Notes under the pieces: generated by a model | Told to the model about the DNA's origin: nothing | Databases searched by the model: none | The model's input: only the letters and a program-made list of their open reading frames with translations | Shown: in pieces, positions 3,203 to 36,991 of the stretch | Numbering within the stretch: position 1 is the stretch's first letter | Layout: each line of letters opens with the position of its first letter | Made by a program: the position numbers and the translations under genes | Source of the DNA: a virus | Virus record (IMG/VR): IMGVR_UViG_3300037883_000109 | Coordinates: 1 to 36,991 of that record | Direction: 5' to 3' (one strand) | DNA: 36,991 bases

Positions 3203-5386
3203 GTGTCCGATCATTCCCACTCACCACTCACCACTCACCACTCACCACCGGCGGGCGAGCCGGACATGCGTGACGTGCCGGTCGCCAAGATCCACGGCTC
3301 GCCTACCAACCCGAGGAAAAGCTTTGACGAGGCGAAGCTCGAGGAGCTGGCGGGCTCGATCCGGGAGAAGGGCGTGCTCGAGCCGCTGCTTTTGCGGCCG
3401 GCGAAGGGCGGCTACGAGTGCGTCGCCGGCGAGCGCCGCCTGCGCGCAGCCCGGCTGGCCGGCCGCGTCGTCGTGCCGGCGGTGATCCGGGCCCTCACCG
3501 ACGACGAGGTCCTGGAGATCCAGCTCGTCGAGAACCTGCAGCGCCAGGACTTGAACCCGCTCGAAGAGGCCGCGGGGATCGAGCAGTGGCTGGCACGCCA
3601 CCAGGGCGAGGGGGCGGTCAAGGAGCTGGCCAGGAAGCTCGGCAAGAGCACGGGCCACATCTACGGCATGCGCAAGCTCGGGCAGCTGCCGACTCTGGCC
3701 GCCAAGGCCGTGACCGAGGGAACGATCCCCATCGCGACCGCCCAGCTCATCGCCCGCGTGCCGGGGGAGAAGGCCCGCGCCGAGGCGGCCAAGGAGATCA
3801 TCAGGCCGATGCACGGCGACGGCGAGCCGCGCTCCTACCGCAACGCCCAGCACCTCATTCACCAGCGCTTCATGATCGAGCTCAAGCAGGCGCCGTACTC
3901 GACCGACGACGCCGGGCTCGTGGCCAGTGTGGGCGCCTGCACGGTCTGCCCGAAGCGCACCGGCAACAACAAGGCGGAATATCCCGACGCCCGCCCCGAC
4001 GTCTGCACGGACCCCGCCTGCTACGAGGTCAAGGTGAAGGCCCACCAGGACCGGCTGGTCGCCGCGGCCAAGGCCTCCGGAAAGAAGGTGCTGACGGGCA
4101 AGGCGGCCAAGGAGGTATTCAGCCCGTACGGCGAGCTGGCGTACAAGGCTCCCTACCTGGCCCTCAATGCGACGTGCTACGACGACCGCAAGGGCCGGAC
4201 CTACCGCCAGCTCCTCGGCAAGGAGCTCGCCGGCGACGTCGTGCTCGGCCGCGACTCCAAGGGGCAGCTGCACGAGCTCGTGCCGAAGGCGAAGGCGGCG
4301 AAGGTCCTGAAGGAGAAGGGCGTCGGCTCGCGCTCCTCGTCGAGGTCGGGCGCCGATAACTCGTGGCAGCGCGAGCAGGCCAAGCGCCGCGCGAAAGAGC
4401 AGGTCGATAAGGCGGTCCTGCGCCGTGCCCAGGGCCTGGTCGCCGTGGCGGCGGAGAAGCTCGCCGCGGGCGTCGTCGGCTTCACGCCGGCCATCACGGC
4501 CATGCTGCAGGCCATCGCTCTCTCCGCCGTCCGCCATTCGTGGGACGACTCCAATCGGCAGATCATCCTGCGCCGCGGCCTCGAGAAGCCGAAGACGGGC
4601 CACGCCGGGCAGAACCGCGACCCGGTCGCCGACCTGATCCCGACGCTGGACTCGCCACAGGTACTCGGGCTCTTGTGCGAGCTGGCCGCGTGCCGGCAAG
4701 GCCTGGTCACCGGCTACGCCACTCCGGCCGGCGAGCACAAGGCGTTCTGGAGCGTCTTCGGTCTGGATCCGGCCAAGGTCGGCAAGGAGGTCCGCGCCGA
4801 GCTGGCGGCGAAGGAGCGGGCGAAACCGTCGGCCAACGGCCACGCCCGCAACGGCAAGCACAAGAACGGCCGCGCGGCCCGGCAGGCGGTACCGGAGGGC
4901 GCCGGCCAGGAGGAAGAGGACGAGGAGCCCGCGGCCCAGGAGCGGAAACCGCAAGAGCATTGGCTGAGCGGGTTGAAGACCGGTGACCGCGTCAAGCTCC
5001 GGACCGGCCTCGGCGTCGAGGGGACGGTGATCGCACTCCGAGCCGGAGACAAACCGTCCGCGTTCGTCGAATGGGGCAAGATGCGCGGCAGAAAGAAACC
5101 TGTCCGCGCCTATCACCTGGTCGCCGACCTGGTCGAGGTGGACAGAGCCGCGGACGTCGAGTCGGAGATCGAGCTGTCGGAAGACGATGGCCGCTGCCGG
5201 GTGTGCGGCTGTACCGAGGACGAGCCGTGCGCGGGCGGCTGCGCCTGGATCGAACCGGGACTGTGCGACAACCCCGATTGTCTGGCCGCATCGCCGCCCA
5301 GGAGCCCCGAGGGGAAGCGGCGGCACAAGGCGATGCGCGCCGCCGGCGACAAGGTCCTGGCCGGCGCCGGCCAGGGCCATCTTTGA
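3203..5386 (+). CDS. Large ParB-domain protein with two cysteine-rich zinc motifs
   Basis: 727 residues from GTG 3203 (GGAG at 3191-3194); the alternative ATG 3266 would remove an N-terminal stretch encoded by a heptamer array. A ParB N-terminal domain spans residues ~23-115, with GERRLRAARLAG at 76-87 as the CTP/phosphate-binding box and VENLQRQDLNPLEEAAG at 109-125. A KorB-type helix-turn-helix follows (ELARKLGKSTGHIYGMRKLG, 141-160). Cys246, 249, 268 and 273 form one zinc-like site. A hydrophilic linker leads to a KOW-like segment (GDRVKLRTGLGVEGTV), and a dense cysteine cluster at 665-693 ends the protein. No ParA ATPase is adjacent. It may organise phage DNA or regulate transcription rather than partition a plasmid. 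Confidence 0.8.
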   Translation: MSDHSHSPLTTHHSPPAGEPDMRDVPVAKIHGSPTNPRKSFDEAKLEELAGSIREKGVLEPLLLRPAKGGYECVAGERRLRAARLAGRVVVPAVIRALTDDEVLEIQLVENLQRQDLNPLEEAAGIEQWLARHQGEGAVKELARKLGKSTGHIYGMRKLGQLPTLAAKAVTEGTIPIATAQLIARVPGEKARAEAAKEIIRPMHGDGEPRSYRNAQHLIHQRFMIELKQAPYSTDDAGLVASVGACTVCPKRTGNNKAEYPDARPDVCTDPACYEVKVKAHQDRLVAAAKASGKKVLTGKAAKEVFSPYGELAYKAPYLALNATCYDDRKGRTYRQLLGKELAGDVVLGRDSKGQLHELVPKAKAAKVLKEKGVGSRSSSRSGADNSWQREQAKRRAKEQVDKAVLRRAQGLVAVAAEKLAAGVVGFTPAITAMLQAIALSAVRHSWDDSNRQIILRRGLEKPKTGHAGQNRDPVADLIPTLDSPQVLGLLCELAACRQGLVTGYATPAGEHKAFWSVFGLDPAKVGKEVRAELAAKERAKPSANGHARNGKHKNGRAARQAVPEGAGQEEEDEEPAAQERKPQEHWLSGLKTGDRVKLRTGLGVEGTVIALRAGDKPSAFVEWGKMRGRKKPVRAYHLVADLVEVDRAADVESEIELSEDDGRCRVCGCTEDEPCAGGCAWIEPGLCDNPDCLAASPPRSPEGKRRHKAMRAAGDKVLAGAGQGHL
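3219..3246 (-). repeat. Heptamer array C: four GGTGAGT units (minus orientation) at the start of the ParB gene
   Basis: Four exact ACTCACC units on the plus strand. On the minus strand the array ends GGTGAGTGGGAAT, the same boundary as arrays A and E. If translation starts at GTG 3203 the array is translated as a Ser/Pro/Leu/Thr/His segment before the ParB domain. Confidence 0.9.
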
Positions 5387-10193: not shown

Positions 10194-10446
10194 AGGGAAA
10201 TGTCGGGACTGTGGCAGAGACGGCCTGGCGCTCAGCAGCGGGCGCTGTGGAAGGTGCTGTCGGCAAGCGTTTGTGATCGTACAGGCATTTATCGAGGGCA
10301 GGGCAACGAGGCTCCATGCAGTACGACGCCGAGGCAAGAGGGAAGACTCGCTTATGCCGCCTGAACGAATCGCGGAGCTACGCGCACTGGCCGAGGCGCG
10401 TAAGCCTCTCTTCGGGCGAGCGGTGATCATGATCCGGGAGGTGTGA
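10180..10446 (+). CDS. Small zinc-ribbon protein
   Basis: 88 residues from GTG 10180, with GGGAGAAGG just upstream. Two cysteine pairs (CRDCG and CGRCC) about ten residues apart make a treble-clef or zinc-ribbon knuckle at the N-terminus; the rest is basic and helical (VRRRGKREDS, then RIAELRALAEARK). It is likely to bind nucleic acid. Its stop overlaps the GTG/ATG start region of the DUF5131 gene. Confidence 0.65.
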   Translation: MPRPRGKCRDCGRDGLALSSGRCGRCCRQAFVIVQAFIEGRATRLHAVRRRGKREDSLMPPERIAELRALAEARKPLFGRAVIMIREV

Positions 10447-10448
10447 CC

Positions 10449-11534
10449 ATGGGCAAAACGTCGATCGAGTGGACCGAGTTCAGCATCAACCCGATCCGGG
10501 CCCGCAACAAGGCCACGGGCAAGGTCGGCCACTTCTGCGAGAAGATCAGCCCGGGCTGCGGTCACTGCTACGCCTCAGAGTGGAACGAAAACCGCCTCGG
10601 CACCGGGCTGCCGTTCTTGCCGGCGTGGCGGGACTCGGTCGAGCTGTTCCTGGACGAGGGCAAGCTGCAGGAGGTCCTGCGCCGCCAGAAGCCGACGACC
10701 TATTTCTGGTGCGATATGACGGACCTGTTCCTGGAGCATCATCCCGATGGGTGGATCGACGCCTGCTTCGCCACCATGGCCCTGACGCCCTGGCACACGC
10801 ACCAGGTGCTGACGAAGCGAACCCAGCGGATGCACGATTACTTCGACAAGCGCGTTACGAGGCACGTCCTGGCGGCCGCGGCCAGCCAATTGAGCGGCCG
10901 ACGTGACGGGGCGCTCGGAACCTGTGACCACGCCGTTTGCAACATCGACTGGCCCATTCCCAACGTCCAGCTAGGCGTCAGCGTCGAAGACCAGCCGCGC
11001 GCGGATGAACGCATTCACTGGCTGATCCGGACACCCGCGGCGCTGCGATTTTTGTCGTGCGAGCCGTTGCTCGGCGCCGTCGTGCTACCGGTCATGATCG
11101 ATGAGGCACTGGACTGTCCGCCGGAGGAACGGAGGCACTGGCGATTCGGTGGCATCGTGCCGGTTGAGTGCTTGCCGCTGCCGCCAGGATCTCGAGGAAT
11201 TGACTGGGTGATCGTCGGCGGCGAGAGCGGCCCGGACGCGCGCCCCTGCCACGTCCGGTGGATCCGTTCGATCGTGAAGCAATGCCGGGCCGCTGCGGTC
11301 CCGGTGTTCTCTAAGCAGCTTGGCAGCAGTGTCTGGAGTCGGAATGACGAGGTGGCCGACTGGTTCGATGAGTGCGGGCATCTGGAGATGCCAGGGACGC
11401 CGCGATTCCAGGGAGAGGTTGAGCGCGTTGTGGGGTTCCGCGACCGCAAGGGCGGCGACCCGGCCGAATGGCCCAAGGACCTCCGCGTCCGGGAGTTCCC
11501 CGGATCCGTGGCTCCAGTGGAGGCCCGGCCATGA
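10449..11534 (+). CDS. Phage Gp37/Gp68 family protein (DUF5131)
   Basis: 361 residues. ATG 10449 is chosen with GGGAGG (10436-10441) 7 bases upstream; GTG 10443 is in frame but too close to it. The family signature is clear: N-terminal KTSIEWTE, the three-cysteine motif C30-X6-C37-X2-C40 (CEKISPGCGHCYA), then YFWCDMTDLFLEHHPDGWID, FATMALTPWHTHQVLTKR and IDWVIVGGESGPDARP. This family resembles radical-SAM enzymes in its cysteine pattern and is often found with a 'three-Cys-motif partner' (TcmP) gene. No such partner is adjacent here. The substrate is unknown; the gene is frequent in phages and mobile DNA. Confidence 0.9.
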   Translation: MGKTSIEWTEFSINPIRARNKATGKVGHFCEKISPGCGHCYASEWNENRLGTGLPFLPAWRDSVELFLDEGKLQEVLRRQKPTTYFWCDMTDLFLEHHPDGWIDACFATMALTPWHTHQVLTKRTQRMHDYFDKRVTRHVLAAAASQLSGRRDGALGTCDHAVCNIDWPIPNVQLGVSVEDQPRADERIHWLIRTPAALRFLSCEPLLGAVVLPVMIDEALDCPPEERRHWRFGGIVPVECLPLPPGSRGIDWVIVGGESGPDARPCHVRWIRSIVKQCRAAAVPVFSKQLGSSVWSRNDEVADWFDECGHLEMPGTPRFQGEVERVVGFRDRKGGDPAEWPKDLRVREFPGSVAPVEARP

Positions 11535-11881
11535 TTCATAGCGACACCTGGACCTGCTGGGAGATCTTGCACAGCGGCGAGGGCCCGCGCGGGAAAAGCC
11601 ACGTTACGCGGCACGTCCATTCGGTCTCGCCAGAAGCGGCCGCCAAATTCGTTGCCGAGGAACTGGACGATGCCGAGAAGCGAGAAAGCGGCTGTAGCGA
11701 CAGCCACCTGAGCGGGGGCGAGCGCTTCATTGAGGTCGAGATTCCGGCCGGCATGGTACCGGGCTCCAAAGAAAAGAGCTCGGCCTTCTTCCGGGTGCGG
11801 ACGGTCGTTCGACGATGCTACGACGCGACGCTTCACCCGTCGCCCGAGGAGCTGGCTCACCAATTACGGAGACCGCGCTGA
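11531..11881 (+). CDS. Hypothetical protein between DUF5131 and HerA-like genes
   Basis: 116 residues from ATG 11531 (ATGA overlap). It has a beta-sheet region (TWTCWEILHSGEGPRG, HVTRHVHSVSPEAAAKFVAEELDDAEKR) and a strand (RFIEVEIPAGM), resembling small alpha/beta modules with no family name known to me. Its end overlaps the ATPase gene: by 67 bases if that gene starts at ATG 11815, or by CTGA if it starts at CTG 11878. Confidence 0.65.
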   Translation: MIHSDTWTCWEILHSGEGPRGKSHVTRHVHSVSPEAAAKFVAEELDDAEKRESGCSDSHLSGGERFIEVEIPAGMVPGSKEKSSAFFRVRTVVRRCYDATLHPSPEELAHQLRRPR

Positions 11882-13602
11882 AGAATATCCCGCTCGCCGC
11901 CGACCTGGCCCTGCCGGCCGAGGCTGTGACGCAGACCTTTGGCATCCTGGCCGTGCGCGGCGCCGGCAAGTCGAACGCCGCCGCCGTCATGGCCGAGGGG
12001 ATGTTCGCCGCCGGGTTGCCGTTCGTGGTGATCGATCCGGTCGGGAGCTGGTACGGGCTCCGCTCCTCGGCCGATGGCAAGGCGGCCGGCTTGCCCGTGG
12101 CCATCTTCGGCGGCCGCCACGGCGACGTGCCGCTCGAAAAGACCGGCGGCCAGCTCCTGGCCGACCTGGTCGTGGACCAGCGCCTGACCTGCGTGCTCGA
12201 CCTGTCCGAGCTGTCCGAGGGCGACAAGACGCGCTTCCTGATCGACTTCGCCGAGCGCCTCTACCGCCGCAACACGGAGCCCTTGCACCTCTTCCTGGAG
12301 GAGGCCGACGACTTCATTCCGCAGCGGCCGTTCCGGGAGCAGGCGCGGCTGGTGCGGGCCTGGGAAAACGTCGTCCGCCGCGGCCGGGCCCGGGGCCTCG
12401 GCATGACGATGATCACCCAGCGTTCGGCGGCCCTCAACAAGAACGTGCTCACCCAGGCCGAGACGCTGATCGTGCTGCGGACGACGTCGCCGCAGGACAA
12501 GAAGGCGATCGCCGGCTGGATCGAATACCACGGCCAGTCGAAGGAGCTGCTCGATTCGCTCCCCGGCCTGGCCAACGGCGAGGCCTGGGTGTGGTCGCCG
12601 TCGTGGCTGCAGGTGCTCCGGCGCGTGCGCGTGCTGCGGCGCTCGACGTACGACAGTGGCGCCACGCCCAAGGCCGGGGCCCACAAGCGGACGCCGGCGA
12701 CGCTCGCCGAGCTCGACCTGGCCGCGGTGCGGGCGCGCATGGCCGAGACGATCGAGCGGGCCCGGGCCGAGGATCCGCGCGAACTACGCCGGCAGATCGC
12801 CGACCTGCAGCGGCAGCTGCGGGAGAAGCCGGCTGCGGCCGAGCCGCGCATCGAGCGCGTCGAGGTGCCGGTGCTGCAGGCCGGTGAGGCGGCGTCGCTA
12901 CGTGAAGCGCTGGACGCGATCCGCGGCGTGACCGAGACGCTGATTCTTAAGCTGGGTCGCTGCGAGGATGCACTGCGCCTGGCGACTGACGCGCGACAAG
13001 GCTCCCGCGGTTCAGCGCCTAAACCCGTGCCCCAGCACCGCAACGGACAAAAGTATGCCAAACGTAGTCAAAGTATTCCAAATCCTATTTCGCCTAGCAC
13101 GGACGGCGACGAATCGATCAGTGGTGCACAGCAGCGCATCCTGGACGCCCTGGCCGAGCTGGAGGCCCTCGGCTTGCCCAGTCCGGAGCGCGTGCAGGTC
13201 GCTCTTCTGGCCGGCTACACGAACCTGTCGAGCAAGGGTTTCGCCAACGCCATCGGCAGCCTGCGCACGTCCGGGTGGATCCACTACCCCGGCTCCGGCA
13301 CGATCGCCCTGACCGAGGCCGGCCGGGCCCACGCCAACCCGGCCGCTCGGCCGCGGACCGCGGCCGAGCACCAGGAGCGGATCGTGGCCATGCTGGGCGG
13401 CGCCCACGCGCGGATCCTGCAGCCGCTCCTCGACGCCTATCCCAGCGACCTGGCCCGCGAGGAGCTGGCGGCGCGGGCCCATTACACGAACCTGTCGAGC
13501 AAGGGTTTCGCCAACGCCATCGGCCGGCTGCGCAGCCTCGGCCTGATCGACTATCCCGCACCCGGCCGCGTCGTGGCGCTGCCGGTGCTGTTTTTGGAGT
13601 GA
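11815..13602 (+). CDS. HerA/FtsK-superfamily ATPase with duplicated C-terminal winged helices
   Basis: 595 residues from ATG 11815. Walker A is AVRGAGKS (residues 46-53), Walker B HLFLEEAD (158-165), and a sensor glutamine lies in ITQRSAALNK (200-209). This is the HerA-type DUF87 ATPase core found in DNA translocases. A helical segment (ELDLAAVRARMAETIERARAE, then ELRRQIADLQRQLREK) forms a coiled coil. The C-terminus carries two winged-helix repeats, each with YTNLSSKGFANAIG, encoded by identical 42-bp DNA at 13216-13257 and 13483-13524. CTG 11878, preceded by GGAG and overlapping the upstream stop as CTGA, is an alternative start. It probably moves or pumps DNA; no NurA nuclease is adjacent. 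Confidence 0.8.
   Translation: MLRRDASPVARGAGSPITETALKNIPLAADLALPAEAVTQTFGILAVRGAGKSNAAAVMAEGMFAAGLPFVVIDPVGSWYGLRSSADGKAAGLPVAIFGGRHGDVPLEKTGGQLLADLVVDQRLTCVLDLSELSEGDKTRFLIDFAERLYRRNTEPLHLFLEEADDFIPQRPFREQARLVRAWENVVRRGRARGLGMTMITQRSAALNKNVLTQAETLIVLRTTSPQDKKAIAGWIEYHGQSKELLDSLPGLANGEAWVWSPSWLQVLRRVRVLRRSTYDSGATPKAGAHKRTPATLAELDLAAVRARMAETIERARAEDPRELRRQIADLQRQLREKPAAAEPRIERVEVPVLQAGEAASLREALDAIRGVTETLILKLGRCEDALRLATDARQGSRGSAPKPVPQHRNGQKYAKRSQSIPNPISPSTDGDESISGAQQRILDALAELEALGLPSPERVQVALLAGYTNLSSKGFANAIGSLRTSGWIHYPGSGTIALTEAGRAHANPAARPRTAAEHQERIVAMLGGAHARILQPLLDAYPSDLAREELAARAHYTNLSSKGFANAIGRLRSLGLIDYPAPGRVVALPVLFLE
13216..13524 (+). repeat. 42-bp identical direct repeat within the ATPase gene (13216-13257 and 13483-13524)
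   Basis: The two copies, 267 bases apart (89 codons, in phase), are identical over 42 bases although the surrounding wing sequences have diverged. Both encode YTNLSSKGFANAIG. Synonymous positions are also identical, which points to a recent copy or gene conversion. Confidence 0.9.
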
Positions 13603-16814: not shown

Positions 16815-18629
16815 ATGCCGCGCGCCCCCACCAAAGCCCGCAAGCCGGCCGCCAGTGCAGGCGCCTGCACCTGCCCGGTCGAGGCGTACGCCCGGGCCGT
16901 CGTCTCCGGCGACGTGGTCGCCGGCCGGCTCGTCAAGCTTGCCTGCGAGCGGCACCTGCGCGACCTGCAGGCCGGGCCCGCCCGCGGGCTGCGCTGGGAT
17001 GGCCAGGCCGCCCAGCACGCCATCGCCTTTTTCGGCTTCTTGCAGCACAGCAAGGGCGAATGGGCCGGCCGGCCACTGACCCTTTCCCCCTGGCAGCAAT
17101 TCATCGTGGGCAGCCTGTTCGGCTGGAAGACCTCCGAGGGGATCCGTCGCTTCCGCATGGCCTACTGCGAGCTCGCGCGGAAAAACGGCAAATCCACCAT
17201 GGCGGCCGGCATCGGCCTGTATCTGGCGTTCTTCAGCGGCGAGGCCGGCGCGGAAGTCTACACCGCAGCCACGAAACGCGACCAGGCCCGCATCGTCCAC
17301 AGCGAGGCGGTGCGCATGGTCAAGAAATCGGCCGGCCTGCGCCGGCTGATCAAGGTCTTCAAGGACAACCTCTCGGCCGAGGCCACGAACAGCAAATACG
17401 AGCCGCTGGGCAAGGACGCCGACACGCTCGACGGCCTGAACCCCTCCGGCGTGATCGTGGACGAGCTCCATGCCCACAAGACGCGCGACATGCTCGACGT
17501 CCTGGAGACCGCGACCGGGGCCCGGCGCGAGCCGCTCATTTTCGTCATCACCACGGCCGGCGTCGCCGGCGGGCAGACGGTCTGCCAGGAGATGCACGAT
17601 TACGGGGAGAAGGTCCTGGACGGGACGCTCGAAGACGACACGCTCTTCGCCTTCATCGCGGCCATCGACCAGGGTGACGACTGGAAGGACGAGGCCTGCT
17701 GGCCCAAGGCCAACCCGAACCTCGGTGTCTCTTGCAAGCTGGAGGATCTGCGGGCGAAGTGCACCAAGGCCAAGGAGATGCCCTCGGCCCAGGCCACGTT
17801 CCGCCAGAAGCACCTCGATGAGTGGGTGCAGGCGATCGAAGTCTGGCTCCCCGACGACCGCTGGATGCAGTCGGCCAACGCCCGCCCGGTCGGGCCGGGG
17901 GAGCTGCTCGGCCGGGAATGCTACGGCGGCCTCGACCTGGCCAATACGCTCGATCTCTGCGCCCTAGTCCTGGTCTTCCCGCGCGGAGAAACCACGCCCT
18001 TCGTGCTGCCCGACGCCGCCGCCCAGCAGCCGCACCCTCCCGCCTCGCCGGCGACCAGCGCGGCCGCGCCGCCGCCCGCCCTGGTCCTGGCCGAGTCGTA
18101 CGACGTCCTGGCCTTCTTCTGGACCCCGGAAGACTGCGCCAAGGAGCGCGAGCGCACCAACCGCACCAATTACCGCACCTGGATCAGCCAGGGCCTCATT
18201 ACCGCCACGGACGGCGACGTGACCGATTACGACGTGATCCGCAGGGACCTGGTCGAGCTCGGCCGCCGCTACCGGATCATGGGGCTGGCCTACGACCCGC
18301 ACAACGCGACCCAGCTCGCCAACCAGCTCACCCAGGACGGCTTCACGGTCGAGCAGTTCCTGCAGCGGATCACGAGTTACAACGAGCCGATGATGGCCCT
18401 CGAAAAGCTGGCCAAGGAGGGCCGCTTCCGGCACGGCGGCAACCCGGTGCTGCGCTGGATGATCGGCAACGTCCACGCGATCCGCAACGGCTTGGGCCAG
18501 CAAATGCCCAGCCGGAAGAAGTCGAAGGATAAGATCGACGGCGCCGTGGCCGCGCTGATGGCGCTGTCGATGGCCATGAAGCGGCCGGACTCGAGAGACT
18601 GGTACAGTCCCGGCTGCCTACGCAACTGA
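16815..18629 (+). CDS. terL: Terminase large subunit, P27-type
   Basis: 604 residues from ATG 16815 (GAGG upstream). The ATPase has Walker A ARKNGKST (121-128) and Walker B VIVDELH (213-219). The region SKYEPLGKDADTLDGL is typical of this terminase class. A Pro/Ala linker insertion at ~400-420 precedes the nuclease domain, whose acidic residues appear in GGLDLANTLD, AYDPHN and DGAVAALMA. It cuts the DNA and pumps it into the prohead at the portal. The 16-bp palindrome at 16855-16870 lies in its N-terminal coding region. Confidence 0.95.
   Translation: MPRAPTKARKPAASAGACTCPVEAYARAVVSGDVVAGRLVKLACERHLRDLQAGPARGLRWDGQAAQHAIAFFGFLQHSKGEWAGRPLTLSPWQQFIVGSLFGWKTSEGIRRFRMAYCELARKNGKSTMAAGIGLYLAFFSGEAGAEVYTAATKRDQARIVHSEAVRMVKKSAGLRRLIKVFKDNLSAEATNSKYEPLGKDADTLDGLNPSGVIVDELHAHKTRDMLDVLETATGARREPLIFVITTAGVAGGQTVCQEMHDYGEKVLDGTLEDDTLFAFIAAIDQGDDWKDEACWPKANPNLGVSCKLEDLRAKCTKAKEMPSAQATFRQKHLDEWVQAIEVWLPDDRWMQSANARPVGPGELLGRECYGGLDLANTLDLCALVLVFPRGETTPFVLPDAAAQQPHPPASPATSAAAPPPALVLAESYDVLAFFWTPEDCAKERERTNRTNYRTWISQGLITATDGDVTDYDVIRRDLVELGRRYRIMGLAYDPHNATQLANQLTQDGFTVEQFLQRITSYNEPMMALEKLAKEGRFRHGGNPVLRWMIGNVHAIRNGLGQQMPSRKKSKDKIDGAVAALMALSMAMKRPDSRDWYSPGCLRN
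16855..16870. repeat. 16-bp perfect palindrome GTGCAGGCGCCTGCAC, copy 1
   Basis: The palindrome occurs within the TerL coding sequence. The same sequence, with a shared A before and CT after it (19 identical bases), recurs at 30491-30506 in the tail operon. Confidence 0.85.
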
Positions 18630-18867: not shown

Positions 18868-19058
18868 TGCCGCTGCGCCGCTTCCGCCTCGATGTGAACT
18901 GGTACCGGCTCGAATACGACCGGGACTACGGCATCAATCGCCGCTCCGGCTGGACGGCCGTCGTGGACGGCAGTGTGCTCACCCAGTTTGTGACTCTGTG
19001 GCGGGCCCTCGGGGCCCTGTGGAGCCACTACGGGCGCGGGGAGGAAGACGATGCTTGA
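18867..19058 (+). CDS. Small hypothetical protein upstream of portal
   Basis: 63 residues from ATG 18867, coupled to the previous stop. It is basic at the N-terminus (RRFRLDVNWYRLEYDRDYGI), Trp-rich and acidic at the C-terminus (RGEEDDA). It overlaps the portal start by 8 bases. Possibly a small head-module partner; no family recognised. Confidence 0.6.
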   Translation: MPLRRFRLDVNWYRLEYDRDYGINRRSGWTAVVDGSVLTQFVTLWRALGALWSHYGRGEEDDA

Positions 19059-21027
19059 CCTCCTCTTCGGTCCGCCCCGCCGCCGCCTCGATGAATCCGG
19101 CTGGATCGGCGGCAGCTACTGGGGCACCAACCGCGTCAAGACCCGCGCCGGCGTCGAGGTGGACGAGGCCCTGGGCCTGACCTACGACGCCGTTTGGTGC
19201 GCCACCCGCCTGATCGCCGAGACCGCCGCCCAGCTCCCCCTCATCCTGCACCAGAGCACCGGCGACAGCGGCAGCCGCGTTGCCGACGACCACCCCGTCC
19301 ACGACCTGGTCCGCTGCCGGCCCAACCCGGCGATGGGCGCGGCCGTGTTTCACGAGGGCCGGACCGTCCACCAGGTGAACTGGGGCAACGGCTTCGCCGA
19401 GATCGAATTCGATCGCCGCGGCGACCCACTGGCTCTGTGGCCGATCCATCCCTGGCGCGTGCGGCCCACGCTTCCCTCCGAGACCGACGAGCTCGGCCGG
19501 CCGCTCCTGCCGGATTACCCCTACAAGGTCCGCAACAATGACGGCTCCTGGGTTGCTTTCAAGCGCTCGGAGATCCTGCACTTCCCGGGCGCCATTAGCG
19601 AGGACGGCATCTGGGGCAAGGGCGTCATTGCCCACGCCCGCGAATCCATCGGCATGGGTCTCTCGACCGAGCGGCACGGGGCCACCTACTTCGGCTCCGG
19701 GGCCCAGCCGCGCGGCATCGTCACGGTCCCCGGCCTGAAAGACCGCGAGGCCCGCACCAACTTCCGCGCGGAGTGGAAAGAGATCCACGGCAGCCCTGAC
19801 AGTGCCGAAATCGCCATCCTCCCCGTCGAGGGGAAGTTCCAGCCGATCACGATCAATAATGAAGATTCGCAGTTCCTGGAAACGCGCAAGTTCAACGTCG
19901 CCACCATCGCCCGCTGGTACCGGCTCCCGCTGCACATGCTCATGGAGCTGCAGTCCGCGACGTTCAACAACGTCGAGCTGTTCGGCTCCGAGTTCATCCT
20001 CTATTCGATGATGACCTGGCTCCTCAAGCGCGAGGAGCAATGCGACCTGAAGCTGCTCACGCCCGAGGAGCGGGCCGCCGGCTACTTCTTCCGCCACGAT
20101 CTGACCGCGCTCCTGCGCGGCGACACCCTGGCTCGCATGCAGACCTACCAGGTCGCCCTCACCACCGGCGTCTACACGCTCAACGACGCCCTGCGCCGGG
20201 AGCACCTGCCGACGATCGGCCCGGCCGGCGACAAGCATTTCTTTGCGGCCAACAACCTGGCCACGGTCGAGGACCTGGCCGCCGGCCGGGTCCCGGGCAT
20301 GGGCGGCGGGCCGGCGACCGGCGCGGCGAGCGGCGGGGCCGGAACAGGCACCACGTCGCCCTCACCTCGCAGCGCCACGCCGGCCGCGCCGTCCGATCAG
20401 GACCGCGACCTGATCGAGCTGCCGGACGTGCGTCAGCAGGACAATTACAGCTGCGGCGCCGCCGTCGCCATGTCGGTCGGCCGCTATTTCGACGTCGGTC
20501 CGGAGAGCCTCGAGGAGTGGAAGGCCGCTCTCGACACGACGCCCGAGAACTCCACGCGCCCGATCAAGATCATCGAATACCTGACGTCGCTCGGCCTGGC
20601 GGTCACCGCCGCCAGCGATATGACCGTCGAGGACCTGCGCGACTTCTGGAAGGACGGCATGCCGGTCATCTGTCCCATCCAGGAGTACGGCCTCCCCAGC
20701 AAACAGGCCTCCTTCCAATACGGCCATTACGTGGCAACGATCGGCGTGGCCCACGGCCAGGTATTCGTCCAGGACCCGTCGATCGACAACGTCCTGGAAG
20801 GGCAGGGCTCCGACCAGGCCCCGGGCCGCTCCCTCATCGCCGAGTCCACCTGGGATAGCGTCTGGCACGACCGGGATGCCGACGGGCGGCAGTACGTGCG
20901 GTTTGGCATCGCGGTCGGCCGGTCGGTCAGCGACCCGGACGGCGATGGGGAGGAGGAAGACGATGCAGACACCGGCCAGAACCCGGCTGCCGCGGCTGGC
21001 CCAGCGACGCGGCCGGCTGCTGTATAG
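19051..21027 (+). CDS. HK97-type portal protein fused to a papain-like (C39-like) peptidase domain
   Basis: 658 residues from ATG 19051. Residues 1-~415 are a complete HK97-family portal: YDAVWCATRLIAETAAQLPL near the start, then GSGAQPRGIVTVPG, RWYRLPLHML, NNVELFGSEFILYSM and YTLNDALRREHLPTIG. A Gly/Ala/Ser/Pro linker follows (~416-450). A second domain starts at LPDVRQQDNYSCGAA: Cys468, His559 (QYGHYVAT) and Asp575 (QDPSI) fit the catalytic triad of C39-like double-glycine peptidases. The C-terminus is acidic and then Ala/Pro-rich. The domain could cleave head proteins, remove itself or enter the cell with DNA; none is proved. Confidence 0.88.
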   Translation: MLDLLFGPPRRRLDESGWIGGSYWGTNRVKTRAGVEVDEALGLTYDAVWCATRLIAETAAQLPLILHQSTGDSGSRVADDHPVHDLVRCRPNPAMGAAVFHEGRTVHQVNWGNGFAEIEFDRRGDPLALWPIHPWRVRPTLPSETDELGRPLLPDYPYKVRNNDGSWVAFKRSEILHFPGAISEDGIWGKGVIAHARESIGMGLSTERHGATYFGSGAQPRGIVTVPGLKDREARTNFRAEWKEIHGSPDSAEIAILPVEGKFQPITINNEDSQFLETRKFNVATIARWYRLPLHMLMELQSATFNNVELFGSEFILYSMMTWLLKREEQCDLKLLTPEERAAGYFFRHDLTALLRGDTLARMQTYQVALTTGVYTLNDALRREHLPTIGPAGDKHFFAANNLATVEDLAAGRVPGMGGGPATGAASGGAGTGTTSPSPRSATPAAPSDQDRDLIELPDVRQQDNYSCGAAVAMSVGRYFDVGPESLEEWKAALDTTPENSTRPIKIIEYLTSLGLAVTAASDMTVEDLRDFWKDGMPVICPIQEYGLPSKQASFQYGHYVATIGVAHGQVFVQDPSIDNVLEGQGSDQAPGRSLIAESTWDSVWHDRDADGRQYVRFGIAVGRSVSDPDGDGEEEDDADTGQNPAAAAGPATRPAAV

Positions 21028-21973
21028 CCCCGACCAGGAGCGCGACGAACACGGCCGCTTCGGCGAAGGCGGAGGCGGCGGCGAGTCTCACGCCGACCGG
21101 GATGCGCGGCGGGACAAGGAGGACGAGGAGCTCGACGCCAAGCGAGAGAAAGAAGACCACGTCATCGACCGCGGCCGCGAAAAGGCCGATGACAAGCTCG
21201 GCCGGCAGGAGGGCAAGGAAGACGACCAGCGCGAGCGCGCACGCGGCAAGGAAGACAACCGCTTTGATCGGCAGCAATCGCGCGAGCGGGATCAGGTCGA
21301 TAAGCGGCAGGAACAGGAACGCAGCGACCTCGAGGATAAGCACACCGACGAATGGGACAAGCATCCGATCCACGAGCGTCAGGACGCTGAAAGCAAGGCC
21401 CAGGAAGAGCGGCACCAGGCCGAGCGGGCTGCCCACGACGACCGCCAGGCCAAGGAACAGGCGGAAATGGAATCCCGGCATGAGCGCGAGAAGGCCGAAG
21501 CCGAGGCCTCCGGCGACGAGGACAAGGAACAGGCCGTGCACGAAAAGCACCAGGACGAAACGGCCGAGCTGACGGACCGGCAGACCAGGGAGGATCACGA
21601 GCTCGACGCCAGGCAGGAGCGCGAAAAGCAGGAGCTGGACCAGAAGCAGGGCGAGGAGCTCGAAAAGGTCGGAGACGAGGTGACCGAGCGCCAGCTCGGC
21701 GAAGAAAAGCAGCTTGAGAGCCGGCACGAGGCCGAATGGAAGGCGATGGAGGCAAAGCAGGACAAGGAAGCCACGGAGCGGCAAGAGAAGGTTGACCGCG
21801 AACGCAAGGAAGAGGATGCGCGGATCGAGGCCAAGCGCCAGCAGCAATGGCAAGAGATCGAGGCCAAGCGCGACGCCGAGGACAAGGCCATTCAGGACCG
21901 CCGCGACGCCGAGGATCGGGAGATCGAGGCCCACCGCGCCGACGAAGACCGCCAGCACTCACACGAGAAATAG
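20963..21973 (+). CDS. Very charged coiled-coil protein between portal and protease (candidate scaffold or core protein)
   Basis: 336 residues from ATG 20963, with GGAGG 8-12 bases upstream; it overlaps the portal gene by 65 bases. After a basic leader and YSPDQERDEHGRFGEG (a motif often found in phage head proteins), nearly all residues are D, E, K, R, Q and H. They repeat in forms like DRQAREDHELDARQEREKQEL, predicting a long, continuous coiled coil. Its position before the S49 protease fits a scaffold, a protease-associated core or a portal-vertex protein. Composition forces a spurious hydrophobic frame on the other strand. Confidence 0.8.
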   Translation: MQTPARTRLPRLAQRRGRLLYSPDQERDEHGRFGEGGGGGESHADRDARRDKEDEELDAKREKEDHVIDRGREKADDKLGRQEGKEDDQRERARGKEDNRFDRQQSRERDQVDKRQEQERSDLEDKHTDEWDKHPIHERQDAESKAQEERHQAERAAHDDRQAKEQAEMESRHEREKAEAEASGDEDKEQAVHEKHQDETAELTDRQTREDHELDARQEREKQELDQKQGEELEKVGDEVTERQLGEEKQLESRHEAEWKAMEAKQDKEATERQEKVDRERKEEDARIEAKRQQQWQEIEAKRDAEDKAIQDRRDAEDREIEAHRADEDRQHSHEK

Positions 21974-21976
21974 CCC

Positions 21977-22921
21977 ATGAACCTGCACTTCCTCGACCAG
22001 ATGGTCTGGCTGGCCGACCCCGCCCAGGTCCAGCTCCACGTCTACCGGGCCCTGCGCGTCCAGGGCTGCCCGACGGCCCGCCAGCTGGCCAAGGCCCGGC
22101 AGAAGCGGCTCGACGCCGCCCGCCACTGCGCCACCCGGGCCGCCGTCCGGGCCACCGGCGGCAAGGTCGGCGTCGTCGCCGTCCACGGGCCCATCACCCA
22201 GCGCTACAGCGTCGCCACCGAGAAGACCGGCGGCGTCTCCTGCGAGGAAGTCTCCGCCGCCCTCGACGTGCTCTCCAGCGACCCGGCCGTCAAGGCTGTC
22301 ATCCTGCACGTCGATTCCCCGGGCGGCGAGAGCTACGGCGTCGAGGAGCTGGCCGACAAGCTCTACGACCTGCGCGACAAGAAGCCCTGCTACGCGATTG
22401 CCGACAGCATGGCCTGCTCGGCCGCCTACTGGATCGCCTCGGCCTGCTCGACCTTCTGCTGCACCCCGGGCGGCGACGTCGGCTCGGTCGGCGTCTACGC
22501 CGTCCACCTCGACCAGTCGGCGGCCCTGGAGCAGGAGGGCATGAAGGTGACCCTGGTCCACGCCGGCAAATACAAGACGGAGGGGAACCCGTTCGAGGCC
22601 CTCGACAAGGAGGGCGCGGCCTACATGCAGTCGATGGTTGACGCGACCTATGCCCGCTTCTGCAAGGGCCTGGCTCGCAACCGCGGCTGCAGCCTGGACG
22701 ACGTCCGCAAGAACTTCGGCCAGGGCCGCGTGGTCAACGCTGCGGACGCTCTCAAGTGCAAGATGATCGACAAAGTATGCACGTTCGAGGAGCTGCTCGG
22801 TAAGCTGACCTCGGGCGGCGGTTCGGCGGTCGGCGGCCAGCGAGCGAGCATGGACGTCTTGCGGATGCGGCACGCCCTGAACAAGAGCCGGGCGGCACGG
22901 CCCGCCCAGAATGCCCGGTAG
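21977..22921 (+). CDS. S49/SppA-like head maturation protease
   Basis: 314 residues from ATG 21977, four bases after the coiled-coil gene. The S49 fold is evident: GKVGVVAVHGPI, then VILHVDSPGGE with oxyanion glycine, and ADSMACSAAYWIAS with nucleophile Ser148. In VHAGKYKTEGNPF the general base is probably Lys200. LGGVN-like alternatives are absent. Members such as lambda gpC degrade or trim scaffold and core proteins before DNA packaging. The last 10 bases, including the TAG stop, overlap the tRNA-Asn gene. Confidence 0.9.
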   Translation: MNLHFLDQMVWLADPAQVQLHVYRALRVQGCPTARQLAKARQKRLDAARHCATRAAVRATGGKVGVVAVHGPITQRYSVATEKTGGVSCEEVSAALDVLSSDPAVKAVILHVDSPGGESYGVEELADKLYDLRDKKPCYAIADSMACSAAYWIASACSTFCCTPGGDVGSVGVYAVHLDQSAALEQEGMKVTLVHAGKYKTEGNPFEALDKEGAAYMQSMVDATYARFCKGLARNRGCSLDDVRKNFGQGRVVNAADALKCKMIDKVCTFEELLGKLTSGGGSAVGGQRASMDVLRMRHALNKSRAARPAQNAR

Positions 22922-22984
22922 CACAACCGGTAGTGCGGCGGGCCGTTAACCCGCAGGTTGGAGGTTCGAGTCCTTCCCGGGCAG
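22912..22984 (+). tRNA. tRNA-Asn (GTT) with C33
   Basis: A full cloverleaf: acceptor TGCCCGG/CCGGGCA (22912-22918/22977-22983), D stem 22921-22924/22933-22936, and anticodon stem 22938-22942/22950-22954. The anticodon is GTT at 22945-22947, and the T arm is 22960-22976 with loop TTCGAGT. The discriminator is G and CCA is not encoded. Position 33, almost always T, is C here (loop CCGTTAA). It overlaps the protease stop codon and, on the other strand, the end of the gene at 22946-23275. Confidence 0.88.
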
Positions 22985-23275
22985 CATCGGTTCGTGGTGA
23001 ACGCAGCCGAAATCCGGACCCGTTCGGAAACCAGCGTAATAACTCTCCGTGTCCCAGTAGATCGCATGGTCCCTCGGCAACGAAGCCTCCTCTTTCTCAT
23101 CGAGGTTGCCGCCATAGACGATCCTGGGACAGCCGCACTGCTGATGCACGCGGCTGTGGTCCGCCTCGTCCTCCTCCCGCAGTTCAATGCGCACATCGCC
23201 CGGCCCGTACGGCATTGCGCGATAGGCCACTTGCCCCCACCATTTGCAAGTTTTGCAAGTTTCCATGCCGCCCAT
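22946..23275 (-). CDS. Antisense cysteine-rich protein in the head module (moron-like)
   Basis: 109 residues from ATG 23275 (minus strand) with GAGG 7 bases upstream. An N-terminal CKTCKWW knuckle, a CGCPRIVYGG motif and late Cys/His in FGCVHHEP look like a zinc-binding protein. The last ~12 residues are encoded by antisense of the tRNA-Asn, so the gene's original end is probably replaced. It lies leftward between the protease and the capsid genes, typical of a 'moron' with its own control. No family recognised. Confidence 0.65.
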   Translation of the reverse strand: MGGMETCKTCKWWGQVAYRAMPYGPGDVRIELREEDEADHSRVHQQCGCPRIVYGGNLDEKEEASLPRDHAIYWDTESYYAGFRTGPDFGCVHHEPMLPGKDSNLQPAG

Positions 23276-23297
23276 TCTACCGCCTCAATTTGCCCCC

Positions 23298-23311
23298 GGA
23301 GGCGCGCCTCC
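23298..23311. repeat. 14-bp palindrome between antisense gene and capsid gene
   Basis: GGAGGCGCGCCTCC is a perfect palindrome located upstream of both divergent genes (capsid start at 23376, antisense gene start at 23275). It may be an operator or a chance GC palindrome in this GC-rich DNA. Confidence 0.4.
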
Positions 23312-23375
23312 CGGAAACTCCCCTCTGCGAACAGACCCGAGCGGGCCCCGATCCGCGGAACAGAGGAGAGCCCCG

Positions 23376-24785
23376 GTGGAACGTCTTCAGCAACTGCTTG
23401 CGCAACTCCAGGACGTTGACGAGAAGCTCGACGCCCTCCTTTCCCACGACGATCTGACCGATGCCCAGCGTGCCGAGCACCAGAAGCTCGAAGCGGAGCG
23501 TGTCCGCATCCTGGCCGCGATCAAGCGCGAGCAGGAGCGGCAGGCCCGGGACGAGGAGCGGGCGACGCTGGCGGCCGACGCCGAGCGCCGCGGCCGCACC
23601 GTCGCCGGAACCAACCGCCGGGCCGACCCCGACGATCCCCACGCGGTCGTCATCAGCACGACCGGGCCCGGCAAGATCACCGTCAAGACGCCCGACTTCT
23701 CGAAGGACCCGAAGAAGGGCTTCGAGCGCGAGCGCGATTTCTACATGACGGTCATCCAGACGAGCCAGAGCGGCCGCATGGATGACCGGCTCCGTTTCCT
23801 GTGGCAGCCGACCGCTGCCCAGCAGTGGCCGACCCAGCAACTGACCGTCGGCTCGGACGAGGCCCGCGGCGCCAGCGATCCCTACGGCGGCTTCATGGTG
23901 CCGGAGGCATTCAGCCCCGATTTCTTGAAGGTGCAGCCCGAAGACGATCCGATGGGCAAGCGCACCACCGGCATCCCCATGGCCCGGCCGATCGTGCGCA
24001 TCCCGGCCCGGACCGACAAGGACCATCGCACGAGCGTCGCCGGTGGTCTGACCGTGACGCGCCGCCCGGAAACCCTCGGTGGCACGGCCAGCCAGATGAC
24101 GCTCGAGCAGGTCAGCCTCGAGGCGCATTCGCTCTTCGGCCTGTCCTACGCGACCGAGGAGCTGCTCGCCGACAGCCCGATCAGCTTCGCCGCCATCCTG
24201 GAGGCCGGTTTCTCCGACCAGTTCACCTACGCCCTGGTCAAGGAGCGGATCTCCGGCACCGGCGTCGGCGAGTTCGAAGGGGTCCTCAACGCGTCGGCCC
24301 TCATCACGGTCAACAAGCGCACCGGCCAGGCGGCCAGCACGATCATCCTCGAAAACATCCTCGACATGCGCTCGCAGTGCTGGGGATACCGCAAAGCGAT
24401 CTGGATCGCCAACCACGACACGATTCCCCAGATGGGCACGCTCAACCAGCAGGTCGGCACCGCTGGTACGGGCATGATCTGGCTCCCCTCGCTCCGCGAA
24501 GGCGAGCCCGACATGCTGATGGGCCGGCCGCTGGTCTTCAGCGAGTACGCCAAGGCCCTCGGCACGGCCGGCGACCTGATCCTGGCCAACTGGTCGGAAT
24601 ACCTCGAGGGGCTCTACCAGCCCATGCAGTCGGCCGAGTCGATCCACGTGCGCTTCGTGAATCACGAACGCGCGTTCAAGTGGTGGCTCCGGAACGACGG
24701 CCGGTCCTGGTGGAAGACCGACCTGACCCCGGTCAACAGCGCCAAGCACCTGAGCCCGTTCGTCGTCCTGCAGACCCGGTCGTAA
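23376..24785 (+). CDS. Major capsid protein, HK97 fold
   Basis: 469 residues from GTG 23376 with GAGGAG about 10 bases upstream; the frame is open earlier but without support. The first ~65 residues are a coiled-coil delta domain (VERLQQLLAQLQDVDEKLDAL), normally removed by the maturation protease. A linker follows, then the HK97 fold: the N-arm, FMVPEAFSPDFL, GTASQMTLEQVSLEAHSLFGL, the E-loop and spine helix, and GRPLVFSEYAKALGTAGDLILANWSEY near the end. This is the shell subunit. It follows the S49 protease as in HK97-like phages. Confidence 0.93.
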   Translation: MERLQQLLAQLQDVDEKLDALLSHDDLTDAQRAEHQKLEAERVRILAAIKREQERQARDEERATLAADAERRGRTVAGTNRRADPDDPHAVVISTTGPGKITVKTPDFSKDPKKGFERERDFYMTVIQTSQSGRMDDRLRFLWQPTAAQQWPTQQLTVGSDEARGASDPYGGFMVPEAFSPDFLKVQPEDDPMGKRTTGIPMARPIVRIPARTDKDHRTSVAGGLTVTRRPETLGGTASQMTLEQVSLEAHSLFGLSYATEELLADSPISFAAILEAGFSDQFTYALVKERISGTGVGEFEGVLNASALITVNKRTGQAASTIILENILDMRSQCWGYRKAIWIANHDTIPQMGTLNQQVGTAGTGMIWLPSLREGEPDMLMGRPLVFSEYAKALGTAGDLILANWSEYLEGLYQPMQSAESIHVRFVNHERAFKWWLRNDGRSWWKTDLTPVNSAKHLSPFVVLQTRS

Positions 24786-30512: not shown

Positions 30513-30533
30513 GGTGAGTGGTGAGTGGTGAGT
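30513..30533 (+). repeat. Heptamer array D: three GGTGAGT units upstream of a tail gene
   Basis: Three exact units lie 7 bases before ATG 30541. No other ribosome-binding site is visible, so the GGTGAG of the last unit probably serves as one. The array sits right after the second 16-bp palindrome. Confidence 0.9.
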
Positions 30534-30540
30534 CGGCACC

Positions 30541-36953: not shown

Positions 36954-36991
36954 GGTGAGTGGTGAGTGGTGAGTGGGAAATCCTCACCACT
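36954..36991 (+). repeat. Heptamer array E with inverted half, cut by the window end
   Basis: Three exact GGTGAGT units (36954-36974) are followed by GGGAAA and then by CTCACCACT on the same strand. AGTGGTGAG (36965-36973) and CTCACCACT (36983-36991) form a 9-bp inverted repeat with a 9-nt loop, so the array appears to reverse orientation here and continues beyond the window. Confidence 0.85.

Follow-up and report, generated by a model that had tools for sequence, protein, structure and literature searches.

What a cysteine peptidase domain does behind a phage portal protein is the question raised by one gene of a bacterial virus represented by environmental DNA only (IMG/VR record IMGVR_UViG_3300037883_000109). 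The window analysed here is a stretch of 36,991 nucleotides that spans this whole record. In it, the gene at 19051..21027 on the plus strand, with GGGGAGGAAGACG 5' of its start, encodes a fusion protein of 658 aa consisting of an HK97-type portal, a linker, a C39-like peptidase domain, and an acidic tail. An earlier sequence-only reading of this DNA had taken the gene for an HK97-type portal, which was confirmed by Pfam Phage_portal (PF04860, 1.8e-81; 274.3 bits against a cut-off of 39.1) and by the NCBIfam model TIGR01537 portal_HK97 (198.4 bits against a cut-off of 112.05). Its position between the gene for the terminase large subunit (TerL) and those for the head protease and the capsid is also that expected of an HK97-type portal. 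The length of about 415 residues given to the portal by that reading is slightly too long, since the Pfam core covers residues 47-384 (19189..20202) and residues 384-452 (20200..20406) had a pLDDT below 50 in a full-length AF2 model. The latter stretch is probably disordered, in agreement with the disordered linker proposed between portal and peptidase; the full-length model itself was weak (overall pLDDT 58.5) and was used for linker confidence alone.

At the sequence level, the domain was a borderline match to Pfam Peptidase_C39_2 (PF13529), with 20.9 bits for the full protein and 24.2 bits for residues 451-658 alone (cut-off 24). We modelled residues 451-634 with AF2 using eight relatives (pLDDT 83.5, pTM 0.84) and compared the predicted fold by Foldseek and VIA-align. 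This placed it with C39 peptidases, among them the AMS/PCAT peptidase 6mpz_A (Z 18.1, rmsd 2.1 over 137 residues), and further matches included the pseudomurein endoisopeptidase PeiR (Z 17.2), 9l5u (Z 14.1), a structure of a papain-like toxin together with its immunity protein, the CDI toxin 8ssm (Z 13.6), and 3zua, 'A C39-like domain'. With the fusion protein and domain alignments as queries, we obtained 41 viral contigs that carry the domain; adding the window and two huge-phage records brought the number of inspected viral records to 44; alignment A5 holds 31 of these, and all 44 were later checked with a profile built from it. The predicted nucleophile Cys468 (20452..20454), the predicted catalytic His559 (20725..20727), and Trp605 of the family's WHD motif (20863..20865) are present in 44/44 records. 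The predicted catalytic Asp575 (20773..20775; Glu in L121) and Gln462 (20434-20436), the predicted oxyanion residue six positions ahead of the Cys (Met in L025), are each found in 43. The Cys, His, and Asp thus stand where the sequence-only reading had put them, and, as far as the predicted model allows, they are plausibly arranged as a catalytic site.

Such conservation also bears on the idea that the domain is an enzymatically inactive, possibly binding module that was kept for functions of the portal or in DNA packing. The C39-like domain of transporters such as HlyB is indeed inactive, and 3zua is among the fold matches; but since Cys and His were retained in all and Asp and Gln in all but one of the 44 records, at pairwise identities down to 22%, we regard a silent module as very improbable. 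Altogether, the C39 identity is settled by the predicted fold together with this conservation, and the gene product is supported as a portal joined to a C39-like domain with a predicted papain fold and a plausible catalytic site.

The gene order around the fusion is terminase, portal fusion, a charged overlapping ORF, S49 protease, and capsid, all on the plus strand. Domains were identified for the terminase large subunit (16815..18629; PF03354 and PF20441), an S49-type head maturation protease (21977..22921; PF01343 1.5e-32, phrog_53 2.2e-77), and the major capsid protein (23244..24785; PF05065 3.3e-29). The gene next to the fusion gene (20963..21973), which overlaps it, has a strong Shine-Dalgarno sequence and a very charged product (55% D/E/K/R over 20951-21970), and Pfam gave nothing for this region at E values up to 5. 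Its N-terminal YSPDQERDEHGRFG is similar to a stretch within the fusion protein of contig L015, and it contains YSPDQERDEHGRFGEGG, the like of which is also found inside that protein. A tRNA-Asn gene (22912-22985) lies in the interval between protease and capsid and overlaps the end of the protease gene, and a tRNA-Met gene was found at 169-241. Elsewhere in the window, we identified a ParB-like protein (3203-5386; ParB_N 6.7e-27) and a HerA-like ATPase (11815-13602; DUF87 1.5e-7) in the early region, and a DUF5131 protein (10443-11534; 9.7e-62). Short tandem heptamers (CACTCAC)n occur at 460-488, 665-686, 3218-3246, 30513-30534, and 36954-36975; a 15-base pattern of this repeat had 11 matches in the window (at most one mismatch) and none in 100 shuffles.

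In the 44 viral records, the domain is fused in 14 and free-standing in 30. Nine fusions concern HK97-type portals (window, L002, L003, L004, L014, L015, L017, L026, and L041), so that the search for other portals of this kind, which the sequence-only reading had proposed, brought eight more. One of them, L017, lacks its 5' end and scored below the Pfam portal cut-off (28.7 against 39.1), and was counted as a portal via phrog_2662 (4e-7). Three fusions involve MuF proteins (L018, L038, and L045); among these, L018 had no Pfam C39 match and was counted via its 50% identity to the domain of the window. The remaining two, L039 and L040, encode an identical fusion protein of 703 aa directly 3' of a terminase-like ORF, which was itself recognised by eye; they had no match to a portal family and are portal-like only by this place. 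Some fusions carry further modules. L018:3933-7643 encodes 1236 aa that combine MuF with the C39-like domain and a PI3/PI4-kinase-like domain, in L038:3126-5543 an intein with a LAGLIDADG domain lies between MuF and the C39 peptidase, and the L015 fusion had an additional weak ParB-like match. An ADP-ribosyltransferase-like look of L045, noted by eye, was not supported by Pfam. An integrase was detected in 6/14 records tested, five of these six domain-bearing, and none in the window, which fits temperate phages and leaves the function undecided. The fusion is real and recurrent: since it is found in contigs of several metagenomes with the catalytic residues kept, both chance or artefact and an assembly chimera were ruled out.

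A peptidase attached to a head protein might be thought to act inside the head, as a second maturation protease that remains in the capsid after trimming the portal, the scaffold, or its own linker while the head is assembled. Processing of a head protein by the peptidase joined to it is common, and zincin domains of polyvalent proteins have been proposed to autoprocess, according to the available text of PMC5512222. Moreover, we found no S49, S78, or S77 match in L014, L018, L026, L038, L039, L040, and L045, so that a processing role is possible there, although several of these records are fragments and L040 stood outside the scan for T4-type prohead proteases. In the window, however, the S49 protease at 21977-22921 is separate from and unrelated to the C39-like domain, as the sequence-only reading had stated, which rules out the domain as sole or main head protease of this phage. 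S49 was found in 6/16 records tested (window, L002, L003, L004, L005, and L007), and an S78 protease scored over the cut-off in L015 and L041; six of the nine records with HK97-type portal fusions thus have a separate S49 or S78 protease, while L005 and L007, with a portal and S49 but no C39-like domain, use S49 alone. The double-glycine site, the hallmark of C39 cleavage, occurs within 61 residues N-terminal to the domain in no more than 4/13 fusions, so that cis cleavage at a double glycine was unsupported as a general rule. Weighing both sides, we consider processing within the head a rather unlikely role for the domain.

Comparison of the fusions with each other indicated modular transfer of the domain. 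Between the window and L015, the portals share 32% identity and the domains 69%; for the window and L014, the values are 43% and 76%, and for L014 and L015, 35% and 73%, while the relation reverses for the window and L003 (portal 56%, domain 47%). At the DNA level, the portal gene of the window matched that of L015 only over 20414-20921 (72.7%), i.e., over the domain itself, which places the C39-like cassette, in agreement with the AF2 model, at about residues 455-624. In L002, L003, and L004, the domain separates the portal core from a helical tail, which comes directly after the core in L005 and L006, and a tail behind the domain is kept in 5/9 HK97-type portal fusions. Judged from these comparisons, the domain resembles a mobile cassette in its behaviour.

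A tree of 81 domains, from which L059, L069, L077, L097, and L098 (of the 52 cellular loci described below) were dropped, as were L024 and L040 as duplicates, did not group the fused copies into one clade. Counting starred branches, it requires three or more changes of the 'portal' label and likewise three or more of the 'MuF' label; the tree is unrooted, and each change could be either a gain or a loss. The branch that leads to L039 is long. Of the eight members of one clade (support 100/100), seven are portals and one is a MuF fusion; a second clade (100/96) holds two MuF fusions with one portal. Since portal and MuF fusions are mixed in these two strongly supported clades, there have been at least two changes of partner. 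The cassette is also optional: in a survey of 232 portal relatives, the best 80 included 74 complete ORFs, and 5 of these 74 carried it, all five already in our set, a proportion biased upwards because the best 80 were ranked with a query that included the domain. Apart from these fusions, two portals (L186:2887-4935 and L187:2887-4935) carry a C-terminal SAM-dependent methyltransferase (Methyltransf_11 6.2e-22), which occupies the same C-terminal region of the portal as the C39-like domain.

Outside the viral contigs, a search of 50,697 phage records with the domain of the window revealed no such fusion. Its five matches were three huge-phage records, two of which were inspected (L012 and L013) and harbored the domain free-standing, and two bacteriocin transporters. 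Thus, the view of the sequence-only reading that this is an unusual variant holds for annotated phages, but not for environmental viral contigs, in which the fusion recurs, and papain-like MuF fusions are in print as well (PMC3482391, in the text available). Plasmids gave no match to the domain, and PADLOC none for the four proteins run. Genome contigs gave no match with alignment A4 and 52 cellular loci with alignment A5; in none of these was a portal or MuF N-terminus evident from ORF length and partial protein sequences. Many belong to Melainabacteria-type genomes and revealed N-termini that look, by eye, like signal peptides; others, from Patescibacteria and small archaea, are short free-standing proteins. 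Some of the contigs fell into Woesearchaeota, Pacearchaeota, and Nanoarchaeota bins, and these contigs could be viral or misbinned.

These signal-peptide-like N-termini would suit a cell-wall enzyme, i.e., a domain that exits the head and cuts the peptides of peptidoglycan so that the DNA can cross the periplasm, much as gp16 of T7 acts on the glycan strands. Similarities to lytic enzymes point the same way: the top fold matches among predicted viral structures (BFVD) carry the names endolysin, lysin A, and lysozyme, PeiR is also the best sequence match in the PDB (E 0.024), and the endolysin family phrog_10051 was matched by the window (0.0054) and by L017 (5e-7). The overall fold is shared with phage endolysins that have a C39-like domain, but the domain of the window sits in a head protein in which a Pfam scan recognised no wall-binding domain, and likeness to the C39 fold is equally a property of leader peptidases, of the papain-like toxin, and of the CDI toxin named above. 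In Woesearchaeota, Pacearchaeota, and Nanoarchaeota, to which some relatives were binned, peptidoglycan is not expected. A role in wall penetration therefore appears quite improbable to us, although the endolysin annotations of the viral fold neighbours do count against a reading of the domain as cargo for the host.

Free-standing copies provided a further lead. A leader resembling the capsid-targeting sequences of T4 precedes the domain in 15/21 free-standing copies tested, compared with a mean of 2.8 and a maximum of 7 in shuffles, 2/38 cellular relatives, and 33/150 other ORFs of the same loci; this motif is post-hoc, as it was widened after the sequences had been seen and after a stricter form had given 6/21 (shuffle mean 1.08, 1/2000 as high; cellular relatives 0/38). 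A T4-type prohead protease scored over the cut-off in 8/35 records, all eight with free-standing copies, and only 4/8 of these show the leader. Such leaders target proteins into T4 heads, as described in the parts available of PMC9026906, PMC5694885, and PMC9958956. Like T4 internal proteins, the free-standing relatives have short hydrophobic or aromatic leaders that end in Glu and may have a targeting function; this likeness does not extend to the fusion of the window. We take the leader as a lead for head packaging of the free-standing copies and not as proof.

Head proteins that carry enzymes are already known, and it is the pair of C39 peptidase and portal that is apparently new, as no such fusion was found in the open-access literature searched. 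A Tox-PL-C39 domain and a fusion of Tox-PL1 with MuF were described among polymorphic toxins (PMC3482391), and mildly toxic MuF proteins, e.g., peptidases, may steer the lysis-lysogeny decision or resist host defences (PMC5576092), both as given in the available portions of these papers. As in the window, a papain-fold peptidase is there attached to a head protein belonging to the portal-terminase system, with packaging and delivery predicted, and three records of the present C39 family are themselves MuF fusions. In contrast, the carrier in the window is a portal, without a MuF domain in Pfam and PHROG scans, and the Tox-PL1 signature NC-H-DxQ differs from the C39-like Q-6, CG, GHYV, DP, and WHD found here. 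Enzymatic domains joined to MuF or portals, including predicted RNases (PBECR, 2H), are also known from polyvalent phage proteins (PMC5512222). The protein of the window has one effector domain instead of two or more, L018 having more than one; in the text available of that paper, polyvalent-protein peptidases fall into four superfamilies (zincin, assemblin-like, DD, and LonC), none papain-like, and the terms 'C39' and 'papain' are absent. With papain-like MuF fusions and portal-fused RNases in print, the general kind is known and the combination of carrier and enzyme differs. C39/C39_2 transporter peptidases (6mpz, PCAT1, ComA) share with the domain the fold (Z 18.1, 137 residues), the catalytic residues, and the preceding Gln, but the protein of the window has no transporter and no conserved cis double-glycine site, and it has the extra WHD segment.

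Based on these comparisons and on analogy with the known systems, we favor as the best explanation, with about an even chance of being right, that the C39-type peptidase is taken into the head during packaging and reaches the host cell together with the DNA. Of the three functions that the sequence-only reading had left side by side (clipping of head proteins, release of the portal tail, and action in the host cell upon injection), delivery to the host is the one best supported by comparison with relatives. A working portal subunit would bear the peptidase as cargo; with the C-terminal side of the portal probably facing the capsid interior, each of about 12 subunits would tether one peptidase close to the packaged DNA by a flexible linker. 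This linker may then be cut by the S49 head protease of the phage or through self-cleavage by the peptidase, the domain of ~20 kDa thus freed would exit with the DNA, and it might cleave a host protein early in infection, such as a defence or regulatory protein.

In favor of delivery, the domain is found in different head-protein families (nine portals, three MuF, and two post-terminase proteins). Transfer as a cassette, optional presence, and the methyltransferase in the same portal region also count for cargo, as do the leaders of the 15/21 free-standing copies. Further, L018 with its domain, MuF, and kinase-like domain resembles 'polyvalent' proteins that are thought to be injected (PMC5512222, in its available text). 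Besides the endolysin annotations and the post-hoc nature of the leader motif, two points count against delivery as cargo. The tail kept after the domain in 5/9 portal fusions would demand release on both sides or none, and, with an HK97 portal channel of ~22-35 A, the domain would have to unfold in order to exit.

Related enzymes seem to be put into the heads of other viruses by different routes. In an extended and more tentative form, which we hold possible but somewhat doubtful, the family as a whole would be head cargo that enters by at least three routes, i.e., C-terminal fusion to portals, fusion to MuF, and leader-bearing free-standing copies, with a shared host target at entry. If this were true, the portal would serve generally to carry injected enzymes that can be exchanged for one another, a view also suggested by the portal-methyltransferase proteins of L186 and L187. 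The boundaries of the cassette make the domain directly expressible and testable. If delivery is right, the portal would be both the gate for the DNA and a carrier of exchangeable enzymes, and one peptidase family would offer several independent chances to learn which host protein is the first to be cut upon phage entry.
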